The position numbers and the translations under genes were made by a program. A stretch of 64,000 nt of DNA, taken from NCBI GenBank assembly GCA_913774665.1, contig CAJYHN010000010.1, forward strand, positions 372,001 through 436,000. Direction: 5' to 3'. This document shows positions 5,073 through 36,423 of this stretch, one piece after another. Positions within the stretch are counted from its first letter, which is position 1. Each line of letters opens with the position of its first letter. Below the pieces are notes generated by a model, which saw only the letters and a list, made by a program, of their open reading frames with translations, did not search any database and was not told the DNA's origin. This stretch comes from an uncultured Microbacterium sp. Its GTDB lineage: Bacteria > Actinomycetota > Actinomycetes > Actinomycetales > Microbacteriaceae.

Positions 5073-6143
5073 TCAGCGGGCGACGGCGGTGCGCCCCGGG
5101 ATCAGCTCTCCGTCGATCGCGTGGTGCGTCACCGTGGTGGCGAGTCCATCGATCTGATCGACGACCGCGTCGACCGACAGTCGGCCGATCGTCCGCAGCG
5201 GTTGGCGCCACGACGTCAGGCCCAGCAGCGAGGTCATGAACGGCGTGACGCCGTCGTAACCCGTCACCGACATCTCGGACGGAACGGCGATCCCGCGCAC
5301 GCGCAGCGCCTCGAGGGCCGCCACCGCCCAGGCATCGCTCGGCGCCATGAAGGTCGTCACCCCACCGGCCGCGAGCGCGGCCGCGACGATCGCGTCGGCC
5401 CCGTCGAAGCCCGGTCCGGCATCGTCGCCGCTGAAGGTGACGACGTCGACGCCCCGCTCGCGCAGGCGCTCCGCCATCGCGTGCGTGCGCCTCGATTGGG
5501 TGATCGAGAAGACCGGGGTGAACGTCATCACCGCCACCCGGCGATGCCCGAGGTCGGCCACGTGGTCGGCAAGGGCGCGACCACCGCCCACTTCGTCGCA
5601 GTACACGCTGCTGATCGTCGGATCCTCCTCCGGGCGCCCCGCGACGACCGCGGGAATGCGCCGTGCGAAGGGGGTGATGTCCTCGACGGGGAGGGCGCCG
5701 CTGCAGACGATCAGCCCCTCCACCCGCAGCGCCACGAGGGTCTCGAGAGCACGGCGCTCGTCGTCGACCGAGAAGGATCCGGCGCCGGTCGCCGTGACGA
5801 CCCGGTACCCGCGAGCCGCCGCCTGCTCTTGGAACGCGGTCAGCAGATGACCGTAGAACGGAGTCGACGCATCGCGGACGAAGACGCCGAGGGTGTGGCT
5901 GCGGTGGGCCGACATCCCCCGCGCGTGCGCGTTGGCGACGTACCCGAGGTCCGTCGCCGCTCTCCGGACCCGGTCGACGGTCTGCGCGGCGACCCCGGAC
6001 GCACCCGAGAGCGCCCGCGAGACCACCGACTTCGACACCCCCGCGGCCGCGGCCACATCGTGGATGGTGGGGGCGGACCCGGCCGGGCGGGGCGCGGCCC
6101 CACTGGCCGATCGGCGACGGTCGTCGGGGGTCTCGTCTCGCAC
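5073..6143 (-). CDS. LacI family transcriptional regulator
   Basis: A 356-residue repressor. A 25-residue arginine- and serine-rich tail precedes the DNA-binding helix-turn-helix (26-45, TIHDVAAAAGVSKSVVSRAL) and a periplasmic-binding-protein-like effector domain. Two copies of one palindrome, one just downstream of this gene and one before the transporter operon, are its likely targets. The effector is probably the imported compound or a breakdown product. It lies 105 bases upstream of the 2H gene on the same strand, but an operator and probable promoter separate them. I see no copy of the palindrome before its own start. Confidence 0.92.
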   Translation of the reverse strand: MRDETPDDRRRSASGAAPRPAGSAPTIHDVAAAAGVSKSVVSRALSGASGVAAQTVDRVRRAATDLGYVANAHARGMSAHRSHTLGVFVRDASTPFYGHLLTAFQEQAAARGYRVVTATGAGSFSVDDERRALETLVALRVEGLIVCSGALPVEDITPFARRIPAVVAGRPEEDPTISSVYCDEVGGGRALADHVADLGHRRVAVMTFTPVFSITQSRRTHAMAERLRERGVDVVTFSGDDAGPGFDGADAIVAAALAAGGVTTFMAPSDAWAVAALEALRVRGIAVPSEMSVTGYDGVTPFMTSLLGLTSWRQPLRTIGRLSVDAVVDQIDGLATTVTHHAIDGELIPGRTAVAR

Positions 6144-6199
6144 GCCTTCACGCTATCGGGCGACCGGCCGGATGGACCCCCCGGATGCCGTGCGCCGGG

Positions 6200-7165
6200 T
6201 CACTCCCCCAGGATCAGCCGCCTGATCGCGGCATCCTTCGAGCCGCCCAGCTCCATCGTCCGACCCCTGCGATAGAGCGAGAACACGCGCGGGTCGATGT
6301 AACTCGCCTTCGCCACGGCAGGCGTGTTCCCGAGCGCGTCGGCGGTGGCGCGCACCGCGCCGACCTCGGCCTTCTTGCGCTCGTTCTTCCCGCCCGTCGT
6401 CCCCGCCTTCGCGAGCGACTCGGCCGCGAGGATCGTGCCGCGCAGGGTGCGGAAGTCCTTCGCGCTGAACGGGCCACCCGTGAGGGAGCGGACGTACGCG
6501 TTCACGTCGCCGGGGGTCAGGGGAACGCGTCGGCGCCCGCGCTTGTAGCTCAACAGCGCCGCCCGCGAGCGCCCGAGGGCGAGTTCTTCGACGATGGATG
6601 CCAGCTCCGCATCGCGCAACGAGAGCTCGGCGCGCTTGCCGCTCTTGGCGGGGAACGACAGGCGGATCAGGTCGCCTTCCACCGTGGCATCCCGTCTCTG
6701 GAGAGTCGTGAGCCCCCTGCTCCCGTTCGTGACGAAGTATCGGGCGTTGCCCACGCGCGGGGCGACCAGGTCGAGGAAGCGGAACGACACCGCCAGCACC
6801 CGCTCGCGGTCGATCTCGGCGCGGCGGAGCGATTGCGTGACGCGGGCGCGCGCTCGGGGCAGTGCCTCGGCGAGCTGCAGGGCACGGGCGAACTTGCCCT
6901 TGTCCTGACGCTTCGACCAGTCCGCGTGGTACGTGTACTGCCGCCGCCCGGCCTCATCGGTGCCGACGGCCTGGATGTGCGCGTTGGGCTCGCGGGCGAT
7001 CCACACCTCGCGCCAGGCCGGGGGGATGACCAGCCCGCGCGCGCGTTCGGCCTCGCGTTCGGGTACGGCGGCCCCGGTGTGATCGACGAATCGGAAGCCC
7101 GAGCCGGAGCGCACCCGACGGTACCCGGGATCTTCGTAGGGGCGGACCCGGACGAGACGGGCCAT
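6200..7165 (-). CDS. DNA topoisomerase IB
   Basis: Poxvirus-type topoisomerase IB of 321 residues, which relaxes supercoils through a 3'-phosphotyrosyl intermediate. The catalytic tyrosine is Tyr289 in ASYIDPRVF. The N-terminal domain (RVRSGSGFRF) and the catalytic segment SAKDFRTLRGT match the family. It is followed upstream by a small SAP/Rho-N-like protein with a 4-base gap, so the two are probably co-transcribed. Such bacterial genes are accessory and not part of the core replication set. Confidence 0.94.
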   Translation of the reverse strand: MARLVRVRPYEDPGYRRVRSGSGFRFVDHTGAAVPEREAERARGLVIPPAWREVWIAREPNAHIQAVGTDEAGRRQYTYHADWSKRQDKGKFARALQLAEALPRARARVTQSLRRAEIDRERVLAVSFRFLDLVAPRVGNARYFVTNGSRGLTTLQRRDATVEGDLIRLSFPAKSGKRAELSLRDAELASIVEELALGRSRAALLSYKRGRRRVPLTPGDVNAYVRSLTGGPFSAKDFRTLRGTILAAESLAKAGTTGGKNERKKAEVGAVRATADALGNTPAVAKASYIDPRVFSLYRRGRTMELGGSKDAAIRRLILGE

Positions 7166-30057: not shown

Positions 30058-30696
30058 CTACACGAGGTGGTCGGCGAGGCGGACGAGTTGGGCGGTGAGC
30101 CACGCCCGGTAGGCCGCGACATCCCAGCCGCGGGCGACCGTGAAGTGCGTCCACGGGTCGGGGCCGGTGATCAGCCCGAGCACGTCGGCGGCGATCGCGA
30201 CCTGATCGACGCGGATGCGTCCGCGCTGCAGAAACCAGCCGGCCGCGATGGTCATGTCACGGTGGCGGCGCATCTCCAGGTCGAGGTACGCGGCCCGGAC
30301 GTCGGGATCGCTGTCGGCCGCGGCGAGCATCGCCCGCACGACGGCCGCGGACCTCTGGTTCGCCTCGATGAGGAAGTCGACGTACCGCTCGATCGCCGTG
30401 TCGGTGTCGGCTTCGCCCATGATGGCGACGAGCTCAGGGCGTTCGGCGAGGGAATGCCGCCCCTCGTCGCCCGCGAACGTGCGCTCGAACGCGGCGATGA
30501 GAAGGGCGTGCTTGGGGCCGTTCAGGTGCACCGTCGGGATCGACACCCCCGCCTCGGCCGCGATGGCCTTGATGGAGGTCGCGACGTATCCGTCCTTCAC
30601 GAAGAGCCGCTTCGCCGCATCGACGATGTTCGCGCGCGTCGCGGCGGCATCCGCCTGTCGCTTGGGGGACTGATAGCTGCGGGGCACGTCCCTCAC
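30058..30696 (-). CDS. TetR family transcriptional regulator
   Basis: A 212-residue regulator. Its helix-turn-helix is at about residues 20-62 (ANIVDAAKRLFVKDGYVA and IKAIAAEAGVSIPTVH); the rest is a helical ligand domain. The GTG at 30696 starts one base after the stop of the upstream membrane-protein gene. The palindrome at 31405-31418 before the operon is its likely operator, giving autoregulation together with the glycosyltransferase and SDR. Confidence 0.92.
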   Translation of the reverse strand: MRDVPRSYQSPKRQADAAATRANIVDAAKRLFVKDGYVATSIKAIAAEAGVSIPTVHLNGPKHALLIAAFERTFAGDEGRHSLAERPELVAIMGEADTDTAIERYVDFLIEANQRSAAVVRAMLAAADSDPDVRAAYLDLEMRRHRDMTIAAGWFLQRGRIRVDQVAIAADVLGLITGPDPWTHFTVARGWDVAAYRAWLTAQLVRLADHLV

Positions 30697-30697
30697 G

Positions 30698-31336
30698 CTA
30701 CTTCGCCGCGGCGCTGCCCGCCCGAGCGATGAGGAGTCCCGCGACGATCTGCGCTCCGGTCGACACGAAGTACATCGTGGTCGTCAGCGCCTCGATCGAG
30801 CTGTTGTTCACCACGACCCCGAGTGCGAAGCCGACGAGCGCGAGCACGAGGATCGCCCAGCGCGCCGCGCCCGTGAACACCCGGGCCCGCACGATGACGA
30901 TGCCACCGACGAGCAGCAGCACGCCCTGCACAGCGCTCATCCCGAAGAGGAAGGCCATCGCGCCGCCGCCGGGTTCCGCGGTCGGCATCAGATACGCCGC
31001 GAGCAGGTACAGGCTCTGGTTCGCAAGGAAGAAGGCGCCGAAGCCGAGCAGCGCGATCTTGCCGATGAGAGACGAGCCCACGGCGCCCTGACCGTCGCCA
31101 CGGCCGAGGGCGAGCGGGAACATCGCCACAACGTGGGCGAGCGTGCTGGCGAGGAACAGCACCCAGAAGGCCGTCGCCGGGCCCGAGCCAGCAGACACGT
31201 CAGTCCCGATTTCGAGGGCAGTGGCGGCGGTCAGCAGCACGCCTCCGGCGAGGATCAGGATGCCGGCAGCCCGGGGCCACGACAGGCGCGGGATGTTCTC
31301 GGGAGCCGGATGCACGGCGGTGGCGGGAGCGGTCAT
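30698..31336 (-). CDS. Six-helix membrane protein
   Basis: A 212-residue protein with six predicted membrane helices and no family that I recognise; conserved polar spots include FFLANQSLYLLAAY and VVNNSSIEALTTTMYF. It is the first gene of the TetR-glycosyltransferase-SDR operon. AAGGAG precedes the ATG at 31336; an upstream in-frame extension would cross the operator and is rejected. Confidence 0.85.
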   Translation of the reverse strand: MTAPATAVHPAPENIPRLSWPRAAGILILAGGVLLTAATALEIGTDVSAGSGPATAFWVLFLASTLAHVVAMFPLALGRGDGQGAVGSSLIGKIALLGFGAFFLANQSLYLLAAYLMPTAEPGGGAMAFLFGMSAVQGVLLLVGGIVIVRARVFTGAARWAILVLALVGFALGVVVNNSSIEALTTTMYFVSTGAQIVAGLLIARAGSAAAK

Positions 31337-31402: not shown

Positions 31403-31418
31403 ACTATACACGTGTATA
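31403..31418 (-). promoter_or_regulatory. TetR-type operator over a -10 box
   Basis: TATACACGTGTATA (31405-31418) is a perfect 14-bp palindrome. On the minus strand TATAGT (31403-31408) overlaps it as a -10 element, about 65 bases before the first gene. I find no good -35 box. Confidence 0.7.
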
Positions 31419-31652: not shown

Positions 31653-32279
31653 ATGAACCCGCACCCCGCCGCTCCCTGCGTGACGGTCGTTCCCGCGACG
31701 ACCTCGCAGCAGCTGGCCTCAACGGGCGCAGACGCGACCCTGACGCTGTGGCTCGTCGCCGCGGCCGCGATCGCGGTGGCCGCGGGAATCGTGTTCCTCG
31801 TGCACGCGCGTCGTCGTCACCCCCTCGGAACAGCCTCGGTTGCCGCCGGGCTGGCGGTGCTGCTGGGCCTGTGGATCGTCCCGCTGGACGCCCCTCCGTC
31901 GCACGCGGAGTCCGCGTCGTGTTCGCTCATCGCGCTCAGCCACCTCGAGCGCGGCGACAGCGCTGCCACCTCGAATCTGCTGCCGGGAGAACGCGTCCAG
32001 GTCCTTCGCGTCACGGTGAGCAACGTCACCGGGATGCCGATCCGCGTGCGCGCCGCCCTCGCGTCGAGCACGGGTGCTTCGGGTGCCTTCATCGCCGCGC
32101 TCTCCACGGGTTCGTCCGCCACCGTGACCGGCCCACTGTCGTCGCGCCCCACAACGACGGCCGTCACGGTCGCCCCCGGCGATCAGGTTGCGGCGACGGT
32201 GTGGGTGGAAGTTCCCGACGGCGCTCAGCCGGGGGCGACCGCCACCTTCGACACCGTCTTCACCGCCACCTCGGACTGA
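31653..32279 (+). CDS. Secreted protein with N-terminal LAxTG-like sorting motif
   Basis: A 208-residue protein of unusual layout. Residues 21-25 read LASTG, followed by a hydrophobic helix (28-50) and HARRRHP, exactly the order of a C-terminal sortase signal, yet here near the N-terminus. A second helix (59-78) ends in PPSHAES, a plausible signal peptidase site at 84-85. The remaining 120 residues are a Ser/Thr/Ala-rich beta domain with one cysteine and no membrane segment. It opens the operon that encodes TasA-like, RCC1 and SipW proteins, so the mature domain may be exported by that peptidase. A fusion of two genes is possible. Confidence 0.8.
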   Translation: MNPHPAAPCVTVVPATTSQQLASTGADATLTLWLVAAAAIAVAAGIVFLVHARRRHPLGTASVAAGLAVLLGLWIVPLDAPPSHAESASCSLIALSHLERGDSAATSNLLPGERVQVLRVTVSNVTGMPIRVRAALASSTGASGAFIAALSTGSSATVTGPLSSRPTTTAVTVAPGDQVAATVWVEVPDGAQPGATATFDTVFTATSD

Positions 32280-32325
32280 TCCTCACCACGCCCATCCCGT
32301 TCCAGCCGTTCACCTAGGAGAACCC

Positions 32326-32868
32326 ATGTCCCACAGCACCCGTTCCTCTCGCCGCCTCCGCATCGCCGGCGCGTGCGCCGCCGCCGCCCTGCTCCTCGCC
32401 GGAGGCGGATACGCCCTCACGGGTGCCGCCTTCACCGACCAGCAGTCGGTCAACGGCAACACCGTCGGAACCGCCTCACTCAAGATCGGCACTCCCGTCG
32501 CCACCCCCGTGAAGACGCAGAACCTGACCCCCGGCGGGAGCGCGACCACCCCGAACGTCCTGACCTTCACGAACGGGGGAACCGTGCCCTTCACCTACCA
32601 GGTGACCCTCGCCAACGTGGCGGCGGGCACCGGAGCATCCAGCAACCTCCTGAAGTGGATCCCCGTGACCATCTCGGACGGCACGACGAAGGAGACCGGG
32701 ACCCTCGCAGCCCCTCCCACGCTGAAGTCGAAGAGTGCCTTCGGAACCTCCGCCACAGGGGCCATCTCGGTGACGGTCGGTCTCGACGCGAACGCCGACA
32801 ACAGTGCGCAGAACAACACCGCCGGCTTCGACCTCGTCGTCACCGCCTCGCAGGTTCCCGCTTCCTGA
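32326..32868 (+). CDS. TasA/camelysin-like SipW-dependent secreted protein
   Basis: A 180-residue exported protein. After a basic N-terminus and helix (13-34), the junction GAAFTDQQSVNGNTVGTASL is the pattern of SipW-cognate substrates such as TasA and CalY, in which cleavage is before the F-T/S-D segment. The mature part is a jelly-roll-like beta domain with no cysteine. TasA relatives form biofilm fibres in Bacillus. The start follows AGGAG. A SipW-type peptidase lies four genes downstream. Confidence 0.85.
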   Translation: MSHSTRSSRRLRIAGACAAAALLLAGGGYALTGAAFTDQQSVNGNTVGTASLKIGTPVATPVKTQNLTPGGSATTPNVLTFTNGGTVPFTYQVTLANVAAGTGASSNLLKWIPVTISDGTTKETGTLAAPPTLKSKSAFGTSATGAISVTVGLDANADNSAQNNTAGFDLVVTASQVPAS

Positions 32869-32951
32869 ACCGCCCCGCCGAAGTGCCGCCGGGCCGCCTC
32901 GCGTCTCGGCGGCGCTTCGTGGTTCCGATCGATCGACGAAAGACACCTCTC

Positions 32952-34523
32952 GTGAACAGGTCCCGCCTCGCCCTCGCCTCCCTGCTGCTGCTCGTCGTCG
33001 GCTTCGGCGGGACGATGAGCTCCACGAGCGCGTCGTTCACCGCCGCCGCATCGACCCCCGCCAACAGCATCAACACCGGGGCGCTCGAGGACCCGCAGCC
33101 CAACGCCGACCCCGTCACCTTCGACAGCGTGACCCTCACCTGGAACGCCGCGCCCACCGGAGGTGCGACCCCGACGTATTCGGTCACCCGCAGCAACGCC
33201 GACGGAACCGATCCCACCACCATCTACACGGGAGCGGACACCACCTATACCGACCGCGGCGACATCCCCGCGGAACTGAAGTCGCGAGACATCATCGCGG
33301 TCTCGACTGGTGGCTTTCACTCCCTCGCTCTCGACTCCGATCACAACGTCTACGCCTGGGGATGGAACGGCAACGGGCAACTCGGCACCGGCGACCGAAT
33401 CAACCGGGCGACACCCACCCGAATCAGCTTCCCCACCGGGGTCACCATCACCTCCCTCGCCGCCGGCGGCCTGCACTCCCTCGCTCTCGGCTCCGACCAC
33501 AACGTCTACGCCTGGGGATGGAACGGCAACGGGCTCCTCGGCACCGGCGACCGGATCGACCGGACGACTCCCACCCGAATCGGCTTCCCCACCGGGGCCG
33601 CCATCACCTCCCTCGTCGCGGGCTCGAGCCACTCCCTCGCCCTCGACTCCGACCACAACGTCTACGCCTGGGGAGATAACGGCAACGGAAAACTGGGCAC
33701 CGGCGACCGAAACGACCGGATGACACCCACCGCCATCACCTTCCCCACCGGGGTCACCATCACCTCCCTCGCCGCCGGCACCAATCACTCCCTCGCCCTC
33801 ACCACCGACCACGCCGTCTACGCCTGGGGAGACAACAGCAATGGACAACTCGGAACCGGCGACCGGGACAGCCGGACGACACCCACCGCCATCACCTTCC
33901 CCACCGGTATCTCCATCACCTCCCTCGCCGCCGGCAGGAATCACTCCCTCGCTCTCGACGCCGACCACAACGTCTACGCCTGGGGATGGAACGGCTACGG
34001 ACAACTCGGTACCGGCGACCGGACCGGCAAGCCGACTCCCACCCCCATCACCTTCCCCACCGGGGTCACCATCGCCTCCATCGGAGCGAGCAACGATCAT
34101 TCCCTGGCGACGGACACCGCCCACAACGCCTACGCCTGGGGAAACAACGGCAACAAACAACTCGGCACCGGCGGCCGAATCGACCGGACGACACCCACCC
34201 GAATCACTTTCCCCACCGGGGTCACCATCACCTCCCTCGCCGCCGGCAGCTATCAGTCCCTCGCCCTCACCACCGACCACAACGTCTACGCGTGGGGAAG
34301 CAACGCTTACGGGCAACTCGGCACCGGCGACCGCACCGATCGACCGACCCCCGCCCCCGTGGATATGACCTACCGCGCCTGTCCCGCCCGATCAGTCCTC
34401 CGCGCCGACGGAACGACCTGCTCCCTCCGGAGCGATCACAGTTACCGCTACACCGTCACCACGACCCTCGGCGGCTGGACGCACACGAGCGTCCCCCTCA
34501 TCGTCCCCATCCTGGCGCGATGA
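32952..34523 (+). CDS. Secreted RCC1-repeat protein
   Basis: A 523-residue protein. A signal segment (about 5-30) ends in TSASFTAAASTPANSINTGAL, again like a SipW substrate. A fibronectin-III-like domain follows (about 50-105), then seven RCC1 blades of exactly 52 residues (YAWG...LGTGDR), nearly identical to one another, enough for one seven-bladed propeller. The C-terminal 50 residues hold two cysteines and YRYTVTTTLGGW. The GTG start sits at the edge of the signal; longer reading upstream would overlap the TasA-like gene. Extracellular binding or adhesion is my inference. Confidence 0.88.
   Translation: MNRSRLALASLLLLVVGFGGTMSSTSASFTAAASTPANSINTGALEDPQPNADPVTFDSVTLTWNAAPTGGATPTYSVTRSNADGTDPTTIYTGADTTYTDRGDIPAELKSRDIIAVSTGGFHSLALDSDHNVYAWGWNGNGQLGTGDRINRATPTRISFPTGVTITSLAAGGLHSLALGSDHNVYAWGWNGNGLLGTGDRIDRTTPTRIGFPTGAAITSLVAGSSHSLALDSDHNVYAWGDNGNGKLGTGDRNDRMTPTAITFPTGVTITSLAAGTNHSLALTTDHAVYAWGDNSNGQLGTGDRDSRTTPTAITFPTGISITSLAAGRNHSLALDADHNVYAWGWNGYGQLGTGDRTGKPTPTPITFPTGVTIASIGASNDHSLATDTAHNAYAWGNNGNKQLGTGGRIDRTTPTRITFPTGVTITSLAAGSYQSLALTTDHNVYAWGSNAYGQLGTGDRTDRPTPAPVDMTYRACPARSVLRADGTTCSLRSDHSYRYTVTTTLGGWTHTSVPLIVPILAR
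33290..34357 (+). repeat. Seven tandem 156-bp RCC1-coding units
   Basis: The TAC codon of each YAWG lies at 33351, 33507, 33663, 33819, 33975, 34131 and 34287, a spacing of exactly 156 bases each time. Units are highly similar at DNA level, so recombination could change their number. Confidence 0.9.
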
Positions 34524-34650
34524 TCTCTCTCTGCCAGCAGGAGCATCAGCGTCGAGATCAGGATGCCGGCGGCCGGGACACGCGGCACCCGGCGGCATGA
34601 CGCACTCAGGCGATCACGACACGTGCCCTCATAGAGGAAGAAGCAGCCGC

Positions 34651-35115
34651 ATGATCCTTCGCTCGACAATCACCCCTCCCCGTTCCCCCGTGCCGGCCAT
34701 CGACGGAGACAAGCGTGTGTGGGCATGGGGCACCCCGGCATCCGGAGCGCTCGGCAACGGCGTGCGCGACGGCGACGTGGTCGACCACCCCATCGAGACA
34801 GCAGACGGCCTCCGCGCCGACTCCGTCGCCGCGGGCTCGATCTTCTCGATGGCGGTCGGTTCGGGCACCGTATGGGGCTGGGGCAAGAACTCCTCCGGCC
34901 AACTCGGCACAGGCGAGACGACGCAGCGGACTGTACCGGCCGTCGCTACAACGACCGAGGGCCTGATGGCATGCCCCATCGGCTCCGTACCGGTGGACGA
35001 CGGATCGGCCTGCAGCCTCGCCTCCGGAACGATGTACGACTACACCGTGACGACTACTCTCGGACGTTGGACCGCGTCGAGCGGCGTCGCCTCCCTCCGG
35101 GCGGGATTGCGGTGA
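34651..35115 (+). CDS. RCC1-like fragment lacking a signal peptide
   Basis: A 154-residue protein with two RCC1-type units (RVWAWGTPASGALGNG and TVWGWGKNSSGQLGTGE) and a C-terminal module with the same layout as in the previous gene (CP...CSL, then YDYTVTTTLGRW). It has no signal peptide and too few blades for a propeller. GAGGAAG precedes the ATG. It may be a decayed paralogue or a reservoir of C-terminal sequence; it is still open and overlaps the next gene (GTGA). Confidence 0.65.
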   Translation: MILRSTITPPRSPVPAIDGDKRVWAWGTPASGALGNGVRDGDVVDHPIETADGLRADSVAAGSIFSMAVGSGTVWGWGKNSSGQLGTGETTQRTVPAVATTTEGLMACPIGSVPVDDGSACSLASGTMYDYTVTTTLGRWTASSGVASLRAGLR

Positions 35116-35252
35116 GGGTCACGCGACGCGCCACCAGGCACGCGTCAGCCCGGAAGACGCTTCGGGTGATGCTGCTGTCGACGCTCCTGCTCGCCGCCCA
35201 CGGCTGGACGCACCTCAGCGACCCTCTCACCGTCTCCCCCGAGACTCGATGA
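35112..35252 (+). CDS. 46-residue basic membrane protein
   Basis: A small protein with a basic N-terminus (RVTRRATRHASARKTLR) and one hydrophobic helix (about 19-34). Its GTG start shares bases with the previous stop, and its own stop shares bases with the SipW start (ATGA). Such double coupling argues strongly that it is translated. It might be an accessory subunit or regulator of the peptidase; no family recognised. Confidence 0.65.
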   Translation: MRVTRRATRHASARKTLRVMLLSTLLLAAHGWTHLSDPLTVSPETR

Positions 35253-35818
35253 CCCCCGTGCCCCGCTTCGCACGCGTGCCCGCTCCCCTCGTCGCTCTGA
35301 GATGGGGCATGCTGGCCCTTCTCTTCGCCCTTCTCGCCATCCCCGTCGCGGTACCGACGCTCACCGGCGATCAGTGGATCGTCGTCAAGGGCGGGTCCAT
35401 GACGCCCGTCCTGCAGATCGGCGACGTCATCGTCGTCGACCCGCACGGACCGACGGGCGTGGGCGACGTCGTGACCGTACGGCATCCTGATTCCTCGCTC
35501 GTCACCCATCGCATCATCGGGGAAGACCATGACGGGTCTTTTCTCCTGCGGGGGGATGCCAACACCGTGACCGACCCGGACCCGGTCGCTCGCAGCGAGG
35601 TCGTCGGAAAGGTGACCGCCGTCATCTCTTCTCCGTGGTCGACGATGCTGCGCGCCTGCACGAGCACGGTCGGCAGAGTGACGCTGATCGGCGCGATCCT
35701 TCTGCTGCTTTTCACCCCGTCCGTTCTCGCTCGTTCCGACAATCGCGGCCAGACTGAGGGGATGAACCGGGAATCCCGTCGCGGCCGTTCGCGATCGCGC
35801 TTCTCCTCGTCCACGTGA
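35249..35818 (+). CDS. SipW-type signal peptidase I
   Basis: A 189-residue membrane peptidase of the ER/archaeal type. The catalytic serine is Ser50 in VKGGSMTPVLQIGD, and His87 in LVTHRII stands where bacterial SPase I has lysine. One helix at 18-38 and another at about 143-160 anchor it, with the active site outside. SipW in Bacillus processes TasA and YqxM; here two or three proteins upstream carry matching signals. It is coupled to its neighbours by ATGA and GTGA overlaps. Confidence 0.92.
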   Translation: MTPVPRFARVPAPLVALRWGMLALLFALLAIPVAVPTLTGDQWIVVKGGSMTPVLQIGDVIVVDPHGPTGVGDVVTVRHPDSSLVTHRIIGEDHDGSFLLRGDANTVTDPDPVARSEVVGKVTAVISSPWSTMLRACTSTVGRVTLIGAILLLLFTPSVLARSDNRGQTEGMNRESRRGRSRSRFSSST

Positions 35819-36423
35819 GGAGGGCCGACGCCGCCGCCCGCACTCGGCGGCGCATCCTGCAGGCTGCGGCCGAGCTCTTCAGCGAGAACGGATACGGCCA
35901 GACGACCCTGCAGGCCATCGCCGACCGAGCAGGCGTGTCGGTGGAGAGCGTCGGCTTGGCGGGCCCCAAGCGAAGGCTCGTCTTCGCCGCCTTCCAGATG
36001 GCCTTCGCCGGTCACGGGACGGCATTCCCTCTCACGGGCGAGCCCGCCTACGTCGATCTGGCGAAGCGGATGCCGCCGCCCCAGGTCCTCGACGAGTACG
36101 TCGCCCTGCTGGCCGCGGCGATCGCCCGCACGCATCGACTGTGGCGCGCGCTGCACACGGCGGCGGACGTCGATCCGCGGGCGGCGCAGATGCTCGATCA
36201 GCTCCGGGCCGAAAGGCGCCGCGAGTTCGAACGATCCGCTCAGATGCTCGTCGACCTCGGTTTCGCCCCCGCCGGACGCATCGAAGACCTGGTGCGGGAG
36301 TTCTACGCGCTCGCATCGCACGAAGCCTTCGGCGTCCTTCACACCGAGTGCGGCATGACAGCCGAGCAGTTCGGCGAGAGGCTCCGACGCGAACTCCCGC
36401 GCCTGGCCAGCGTCCTGCCCTGA
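35815..36423 (+). CDS. TetR family transcriptional regulator
   Basis: A 202-residue regulator with the usual N-terminal helix-turn-helix (RRRILQAAAELFSENGYG, then LQAIADRAGVSVESVG). The GTG start overlaps the SipW stop (GTGA), so it is part of the surface-protein operon and may regulate it. A fragment of a drug-exporter gene lies immediately downstream, so it may instead be an orphan of a lost TetR-exporter pair. Confidence 0.9.
   Translation: MRRADAAARTRRRILQAAAELFSENGYGQTTLQAIADRAGVSVESVGLAGPKRRLVFAAFQMAFAGHGTAFPLTGEPAYVDLAKRMPPPQVLDEYVALLAAAIARTHRLWRALHTAADVDPRAAQMLDQLRAERRREFERSAQMLVDLGFAPAGRIEDLVREFYALASHEAFGVLHTECGMTAEQFGERLRRELPRLASVLP

Follow-up and report, generated by a model that had tools for sequence, protein, structure and literature searches.

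A SipW-type operon of an uncultured Microbacterium encoding a TasA-superfamily protein, an RCC1 propeller and a putative wall anchor that carries its sorting signal at the N terminus

The 64,000-nucleotide stretch of DNA analysed here (the window) spans positions 372001-436000 of contig C10 (CAJYHN010000010.1) in the 3.58-Mb genome G000 of an uncultured Microbacterium sp. (assembly GCA_913774665.1). Seven genes on the + strand, here called A to G, fill window positions 31653-36423 and encode a SipW-type signal peptidase, proteins predicted to be its substrates, a putative wall anchor and a regulator. The earlier note, drawn from the letters of the window, had described a self-contained SipW export operon; its seven genes and their coordinates stand, but two of them (D and E) appear to be remnants, and the sorting signal at the N terminus of A had gone unmentioned. 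The nearest relative at the operon is found in the same genus, in G016 (contig NZ_CAJYPF010000159.1, uncultured Microbacterium). The features of the locus are as follows.

31405..31418, divergent intergenic region: perfect 14-bp palindrome, TATACACGTGTATA, a candidate TetR-type operator judged from its sequence
31653..32279, + strand: A, 208 amino acids (aa); tail with Cys9, LASTG (residues 21-25), first transmembrane stretch (TM1), RRR, second transmembrane stretch or signal (TM2), Cys90, TasA-like domain
32326..32868, + strand: B, TasA-superfamily protein with the SipW-type signal GAAFTDQQS
32952..34523, + strand: C, SipW-type signal SASFTAAAS, probable Fn3-like halves flanking seven RCC1 repeats
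34651..35115, + strand: D, second RCC1 gene, apparent remnant; two repeats, no signal; a longer open reading frame (ORF) runs from 34597
35112..35252, + strand: E, ORF of 46 aa, probably left over from a third RCC1-type gene
35249..35818, + strand: F, SipW-type (endoplasmic reticulum-type) signal peptidase, Ser50/His87
35815..36423, + strand: G, TetR-family regulator

The last four genes overlap by GTGA (35112-35115), ATGA (35249-35252) and GTGA (35815-35818), as had been reported. Identity between the window and G016 is 86% for A, 93% for B, 89% for SipW and 95% for TetR, 73% over 298 aa for C and 77% over 153 aa for D. These identities, together with the distant relatives that keep the set (see below), support the view that the set stands beyond chance.

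The peptidase F passes the TIGR02228 model (69.2 bits, cut-off 51.85) and carries its Ser-His dyad at S50 and H87, the residues pointed out in the earlier note. It matches SEC11A with an E-value of 0.0025 and falls below the Bacillus SipW equivalog model NF046067 (51.0 bits, cut-off 190). In a midpoint-rooted tree of 42 SipW sequences from loci of our choosing, the sequences split 21/21 with support of 99/98. One side holds all 19 SipW rows from loci with an A gene, the L037 paralogue and the L129 fragment, a row that is 25% filled and, although labelled "other", comes from a contig with A; the other side holds the 21 other SipWs, three of them from the window genome. This is taken as a SipW subfamily that, on sequence grounds, travels with B and the propellers. 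A SipW search of named genomes returned the G016 contig and five distant matches. Carriage of the set on plasmids was considered and dropped: one A relative gave no match, and SipW matched one archaeal record.

The window genome also harbors a paralogous set (L037:8795-12937, contig C8), in which a B relative and SipW are accompanied by two tandem YVTN-type propellers, the first with an AYFTAQ-type signal; this set shows no A match. Two further loci of the same genome (L038:8637-10337 and L039:9181-10431) encode SipW domains fused to extra C-terminal parts, one of them LamG-like by eye and one ending in LPATG, a transmembrane stretch and RR.

B is assigned to the TasA superfamily because the profile of its family (alignment A3) finds solved structures of Bacillus TasA (PDB 5of1, E-value 3.5e-5; 8aur, 3.8e-5) and of the archaeal bundling protein X (AbpX; PDB 9rhp, 1.6e-4). 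PF12389, the TasA/camelysin family, matches six of the 17 B-family members at E-values up to 1 (best 7.1e-5), and window B taken alone matches no Pfam family at that level, PF12389 included. The TasA-like character suggested in the earlier note is recovered through the family profile.

The signals of B and C, with the ends GAAFTDQQS and SASFTAAAS that had been singled out before, appear by their sequence to be of the SipW type rather than ordinary. A34, F36 and T37 are invariant in all 17 B-family sequences, nine of which match TIGR04088, the SipW-cognate signal model, at E-values up to 1 (best 6e-6). A search pattern shaped on the proteins of A loci, in which G-A-x-F-T or the like comes after a hydrophobic stretch, is present in 23 of 27 RCC1 frames from A loci (28 less the C-terminal piece of a giant frame) versus one of all 26 other RCC1 frames. 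The four misses are D, two frames with GAWFM and the giant frame of G165; the single hit outside the A loci is L048, itself in a SipW cluster. Several RCC1 proteins outside A loci have, by eye, twin-arginine-like or ordinary starts. The giant frame adjoins A, B and SipW and runs across L209:1-10434 (-) and L136:10322-18001 (-); its coordinates give a length of about 6038 codons, and the two stretches show 52 and 39 repeat matches (49 and 38 in another scan).

C, the RCC1-repeat protein of the earlier note, contains seven RCC1 repeats (PF00415, 335.6 bits, cut-off 21.7), versus four in the 367-aa protein of G016. The repeat array has a 156-base period (6.5 copies, 81% matches), and this period and the differing repeat number fit the gain and loss of blades. 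Propellers are known to amplify single blades (PMC9218822). Ahead of the repeats, Pfam matches the first half of an Fn3 domain (E-value 0.025). When the ends of C are joined without the repeats, one Fn3 domain is matched over positions 8-82 of 84 (E-value 0.0017; 19.0 bits, cut-off 25), and the same trial with the second G016 RCC1 protein found nothing. An Fn3-like domain thus likely holds the propeller of C. By eye, 23 RCC1 frames from A loci have similar C-terminal ends, mostly with two cysteines and a Y-x-V/R stretch.

D looks like a deletion remnant of a second RCC1 gene when judged against its full-length relative in G016, which is about 555 aa long and carries a SipW-type signal. The window copy is short of about 1.2 kb, in frame, the match skipping from G016 position 5863 to 7069, and no signal sequence is seen from the called start at 34651. 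The third exported protein of the earlier note is ambiguous: A is a predicted exported membrane protein, and no signal is seen in D. E had been called a small membrane protein; it has no family match at E-values up to 1. At its 5′ end E can be aligned with the beginning of sipW in G016, 128 bases between D and SipW (35170-35297) are present in the window and absent from G016, and the last residues of E resemble, by eye, the C-terminal end of C. For these reasons E is probably what is left of a third RCC1-type gene and not a functional small membrane protein. Two genes of the RCC1 array thus appear to have been mostly lost in the window genome.

A is defined by an unusual N terminus, consisting of MNPHPAAPCVTVVPATTSQQLASTG, a hydrophobic stretch, RRR, a second hydrophobic stretch with an AxA-like site, SHAESASC and then the domain; an in-frame TAG lies directly before its ATG. 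LASTG, TM1 and RRR follow one another as motif, hydrophobic stretch and basic residues do in a sortase substrate, but they occupy residues 21-55 of 208 and not the C terminus, and sorting-signal models match window A at residues 11-55, under their cut-offs. Of 20 A members, 13 are matched by LAXTG_small (best E-value 7.6e-7), 11 by LAVTG (2.4e-9) and 10 by LPXTG_anchor (3e-5), all at E-values up to 1. In the alignment of these members (A2, which leaves out L212, the A of L209 and also L135, nearly a copy of L134), the motif keeps its Gly in every row and its Leu and Thr in almost every row, and the surrounding tail varies. The motif reads L[AP]xTG in 14 members and L[SG]xTG in three more. A search for L[PA]xTG itself contributed to finding the first ten rows, so the motif is selected in them; the ten added later by profile comprise four with L[AP]xTG, three with L[SG]xTG and three with neither. 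N-terminal L[PA]xTG modules were found seven times among 991 called proteins, all in A proteins.

All 20 aligned A members, that of the window included, carry a single tail cysteine and a second cysteine more than 60 residues past the motif. The second lies 64-95 residues past the motif in the 20 frames and stands at the start of the TasA-like domain. The cysteine was a criterion in no A search; for a few rows (L203, L132, L206) the start codon was picked among several with the cysteine position known. Neither Lys nor Arg occurs in 16 of the 20 tails. The domain of A is homologous to B (98.0%, E-value 1.7e-13; 30 shuffled targets at most 0.5%) and to six C-terminally anchored companions from canonical SipW clusters (91.1%, E-value 1.1e-6; 30 shuffled targets at most 0.1%), the hhalign E-values applying to one target. 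A consequently has the parts of the companions in the opposite order, and we regard it as a putative wall anchor with the sorting signal at its N terminus.

Class E sortases are linked with LAXTG signals. The window genome encodes a class E sortase (239.7 bits, cut-off 160) and also a class F sortase; in one frame (L141:283-1923, contig C12), a region like the endoglucanase BcsZ is followed by a class F sortase domain. NF058583, which describes small LAXTG proteins, was considered as a split form of A and rejected, with 0 of 150 genomes over the cut-off.

A search with B alone had found the operon in two of 149 genomes, and its apparent near-uniqueness was given up when profile searches showed distant relatives. 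B matches occur in 13 of 366 genomes of the genus, the window genome included, and many of the stretches hold A, B, RCC1 and SipW together. Matches to nearly the whole A profile occur in at least 11 of the 366 genus genomes and at least seven of 299 family genomes, the window genome included in each and the others of the family search belonging to five further genera. These are lower bounds because at most 8 or 10 candidates were scored per genome. Raw tallies of 334/366 and 226/299 genomes consist mostly of short, largely transmembrane matches, and only rows spanning most of the model were kept; in the family search, the G649 row covers columns 4-156 of 218. Outside the family, no full-length A match was found among 184 genomes of the order and 178 of the phylum, with at most 16 or 17 candidates scored per genome.

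Among 21 stretches chosen for A, B is present in 17, RCC1 in 15, a YVTN propeller without RCC1 in one more and SipW in 15; all four components (A, B, an RCC1 or YVTN propeller, SipW) are present in 14. These counts were redone on stop-to-stop frames because our gene caller missed short Ig parts and long RCC1 frames. Thirteen of the stretches considered had been fetched for a B match; A is seen in L127-L132, L134 and L135, L136 has its A next door in L209, and no A showed in the scans of L133, L137, L138 and L139. In those fetched stretches that have A, the company of A and B is for this reason partly selected; that of RCC1 and SipW is not. The set is kept in Microbacterium and three other genera, the latter represented by L202, L203 and L204-L206. 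L203 has the order A-B-RCC1-SipW, as in the window, and L202 has B-A-RCC1-SipW; L204, L205 and L206 are larger clusters, of which L205 and L206 are adjacent halves of one region. Outside the set, 21 RCC1 loci were examined (20 fetched from a longer list, and L048), and in 20 of them the fetched stretch contains neither A nor B nor SipW. Together with the matching SipW clade, the 14 complete stretches bear out the expectation that peptidase and substrates are conserved together.

Several individual loci differ in composition. In L132 (966-1583 and 3263-3892; G150) two different A proteins flank one RCC1 gene. L134:11016-13325 and L135:9509-11458 are YVTN-type frames beside A, B and SipW, which end in a C-terminal LAVTG and LATTG of their own. 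A-type proteins with the N-terminal signal and cysteines are encoded at L208:8847-9422, L210:3932-4507 and L212:8139-8960, and the A genes of L208 and L210 adjoin SAYWT-type exported proteins. In G080, a canonical SipW cluster (L048:8493-13039) includes a companion ending in a C-terminal LATTG and also an RCC1 protein that bears a SipW-type signal.

The last gene, G, contains TetR_N (41.2 bits, cut-off 24), in agreement with its earlier description, and 73% identical copies adjoin A in G318 and G356. The operon is probably controlled by G; the G016 copy of the palindrome is imperfect, and a sigma-70 scan of the operon returned no promoter. Adjoining the operon, a divergent pair at 30058-31336 (-) encodes a membrane protein and another TetR, and relatives of this pair also adjoin a SipW gene in G318.

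SipW and TasA build fibres in Bacillus, where TapA acts as a chaperone or anchor. The window set resembles the tapA-sipW-tasA operon of Bacillus subtilis (PMC9674648, PMC10151520) in having a SipW peptidase, a TasA-superfamily subunit with a SipW-type signal and a further protein beside them. It differs in the N-terminal sorting signal joined to a TasA-like domain in A, in the RCC1 or YVTN propeller cargo, in the TetR and in a SipW that falls under the Bacillus cut-off. Another SipW operon that is complete in itself, comprising a subunit that polymerises, further putative secreted proteins and regulators, is sipW-bsaABCRSD of Clostridium perfringens, in which sipW and bsaA are needed for pellicles, BsaA forms polymers and a putative sortase gene adjoins (PMC7395162). 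That operon is under two-component control, and the accessible part of its description mentions neither a propeller nor an N-terminal LPXTG protein (PMC7395162). The view that SipW operons make fibres draws on the Bacillus and C. perfringens cases. The CapP-TasA-CalY system of Bacillus cereus likewise pairs TasA-type subunits with a chaperone-like partner, but is described as sortase-independent, with no propeller mentioned in the accessible text (PMC13082335).

Closer to hand, canonical SipW clusters of the same genus (L042, L043, L048, L051, L054, L213) combine SipW and proteins with SipW signals with a companion that carries the domain homologous to that of A and its LPxTG or LAxTG at the C terminus; A differs in the reversed order of its modules and its cysteine pair, and the SipWs lie on opposite sides of the tree. 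The match of the B profile to AbpX extends the likeness to an archaeal protein. An N-terminal LPXTG is known from Gram-positive M26 IgA1 metalloproteases, where it is described as recognised by sortase A (PMC9637739, in the portion available), the sole case among the matches listed in the open-access literature. A differs from these in its length of about 200 aa, its tail of about 20 residues and its cysteine pair, and no M26 region is matched in window A or among the matches listed for the 20 A members (25 of 52 families). No open-access publication was found that joins SipW with RCC1 or SipW with Microbacterium, which is weak evidence of absence because the search covered open access only. 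We file the set as a variant of the SipW/TasA systems.

With moderate confidence, we regard the set as a dedicated SipW system that would build a propeller-bearing, wall-tied surface structure. B and the RCC1 protein would cross the membrane with their SipW-type signals and be cut by the SipW of their own operon. By its homology B may serve as the structural subunit, perhaps polymerising into a filament, and the RCC1 propeller, probably held in its Fn3-like domain, would form a variable outward part that could bind some partner. The short tail of A would lie outside, where a sortase, most simply the class E enzyme of the genome, could cut LASTG and join the tail to peptidoglycan; an ordinary signal peptidase could cut A behind TM2, and a Cys9-Cys90 disulfide may then hold the TasA-like domain on the anchored tail. 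It is conceivable, although we consider it rather doubtful, that A is in this way a two-piece wall anchor of reversed part order, in which sortase fixes only the peptide of about 20 residues and the TasA-like domain is held by the disulfide, and that it is the base for propeller-bearing TasA-type filaments in Microbacteriaceae. For the dedicated surface-fibre or adhesin system proposed in the earlier note, the SipW-type signals, the co-conservation and the superfamily of B speak in favor; fibre formation, display and adhesin use are inferences.

A number of observations weigh against this interpretation. Close orthologues of B, and the operon with B, occur in only two of the 366 genus genomes. 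In the profile scan, only A is seen in L208, L210, L212 and L211 (a contig of 4.2 kb), a propeller is missing from L207, and SipW is missing from L128 (a contig end) and L131. The canonical SipW cluster of L048 includes RCC1, so that A-type loci are not alone in pairing the two, and the YVTN propellers of L134 and L135 carry C-terminal signals of their own and would need no A for anchoring. Taken by themselves, B and C of the window give no match to TIGR04088 or PF12389 at E-values up to 1, and the giant RCC1 frame of G165 has an ordinary signal. As for A, the window protein scores under the sorting-model cut-offs (NF058582, 24.5 bits against 27; PF00746, 12.8 bits against 20), three of the 20 members have TALTG, MAVTG or LPQLG in place of L[APSG]xTG, and no sortase is among the Pfam matches of the operon. 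These last three points would equally suit an ordinary two-span membrane protein whose LAxTG-like stretch stays uncut, acting as a chaperone or base like TapA or CapP with the cysteines stapling its tail to the domain; A and B share the TasA-like domain, as a base and its subunit could. We rate this reading as possible and somewhat improbable. It sits poorly with a motif conserved over 20 members within a varying tail (ten of them found partly through the motif), with sorting-signal models matching 10 to 13 of the 20, and with the confinement of all seven N-terminal modules to A proteins.

The RCC1 proteins could also be secreted binders or inhibitors like BLIP-II, exported by SipW and lying outside any fibre, with B as another secreted product. 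Bacterial secreted propellers of RCC1 type with binding roles do exist, BLIP-II among them (PMC9218822), and a C-terminal sorting signal was seen in none of the 23 RCC1 frames examined from A loci; however, a TasA-superfamily protein and a putative wall anchor regularly accompany RCC1, and we consider this explanation unlikely. Still less probable, in our estimation, is that the family works while the window locus is a decaying copy that no longer does. The truncated D, short of its signal, and the fragment E are what such decay might leave, but the frames of A, B, C and SipW are open and each has its orthologue in G016, and the deletion in D is in frame.

To our knowledge, TasA-type fibres with SipW have been studied mainly in Bacillus and Clostridium. 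The compact actinobacterial set, with a SipW clade of its own, a TasA-superfamily protein and exchangeable RCC1 or YVTN propellers, could provide a simple model for variable binding heads and for the tying of such structures to the wall. If A is the two-piece anchor outlined above, it would be a reversible, redox-sensitive kind of cell-wall display, and if its N-terminal signal and cysteine pair work as proposed, this way of anchoring at the surface would be testable by two point changes.

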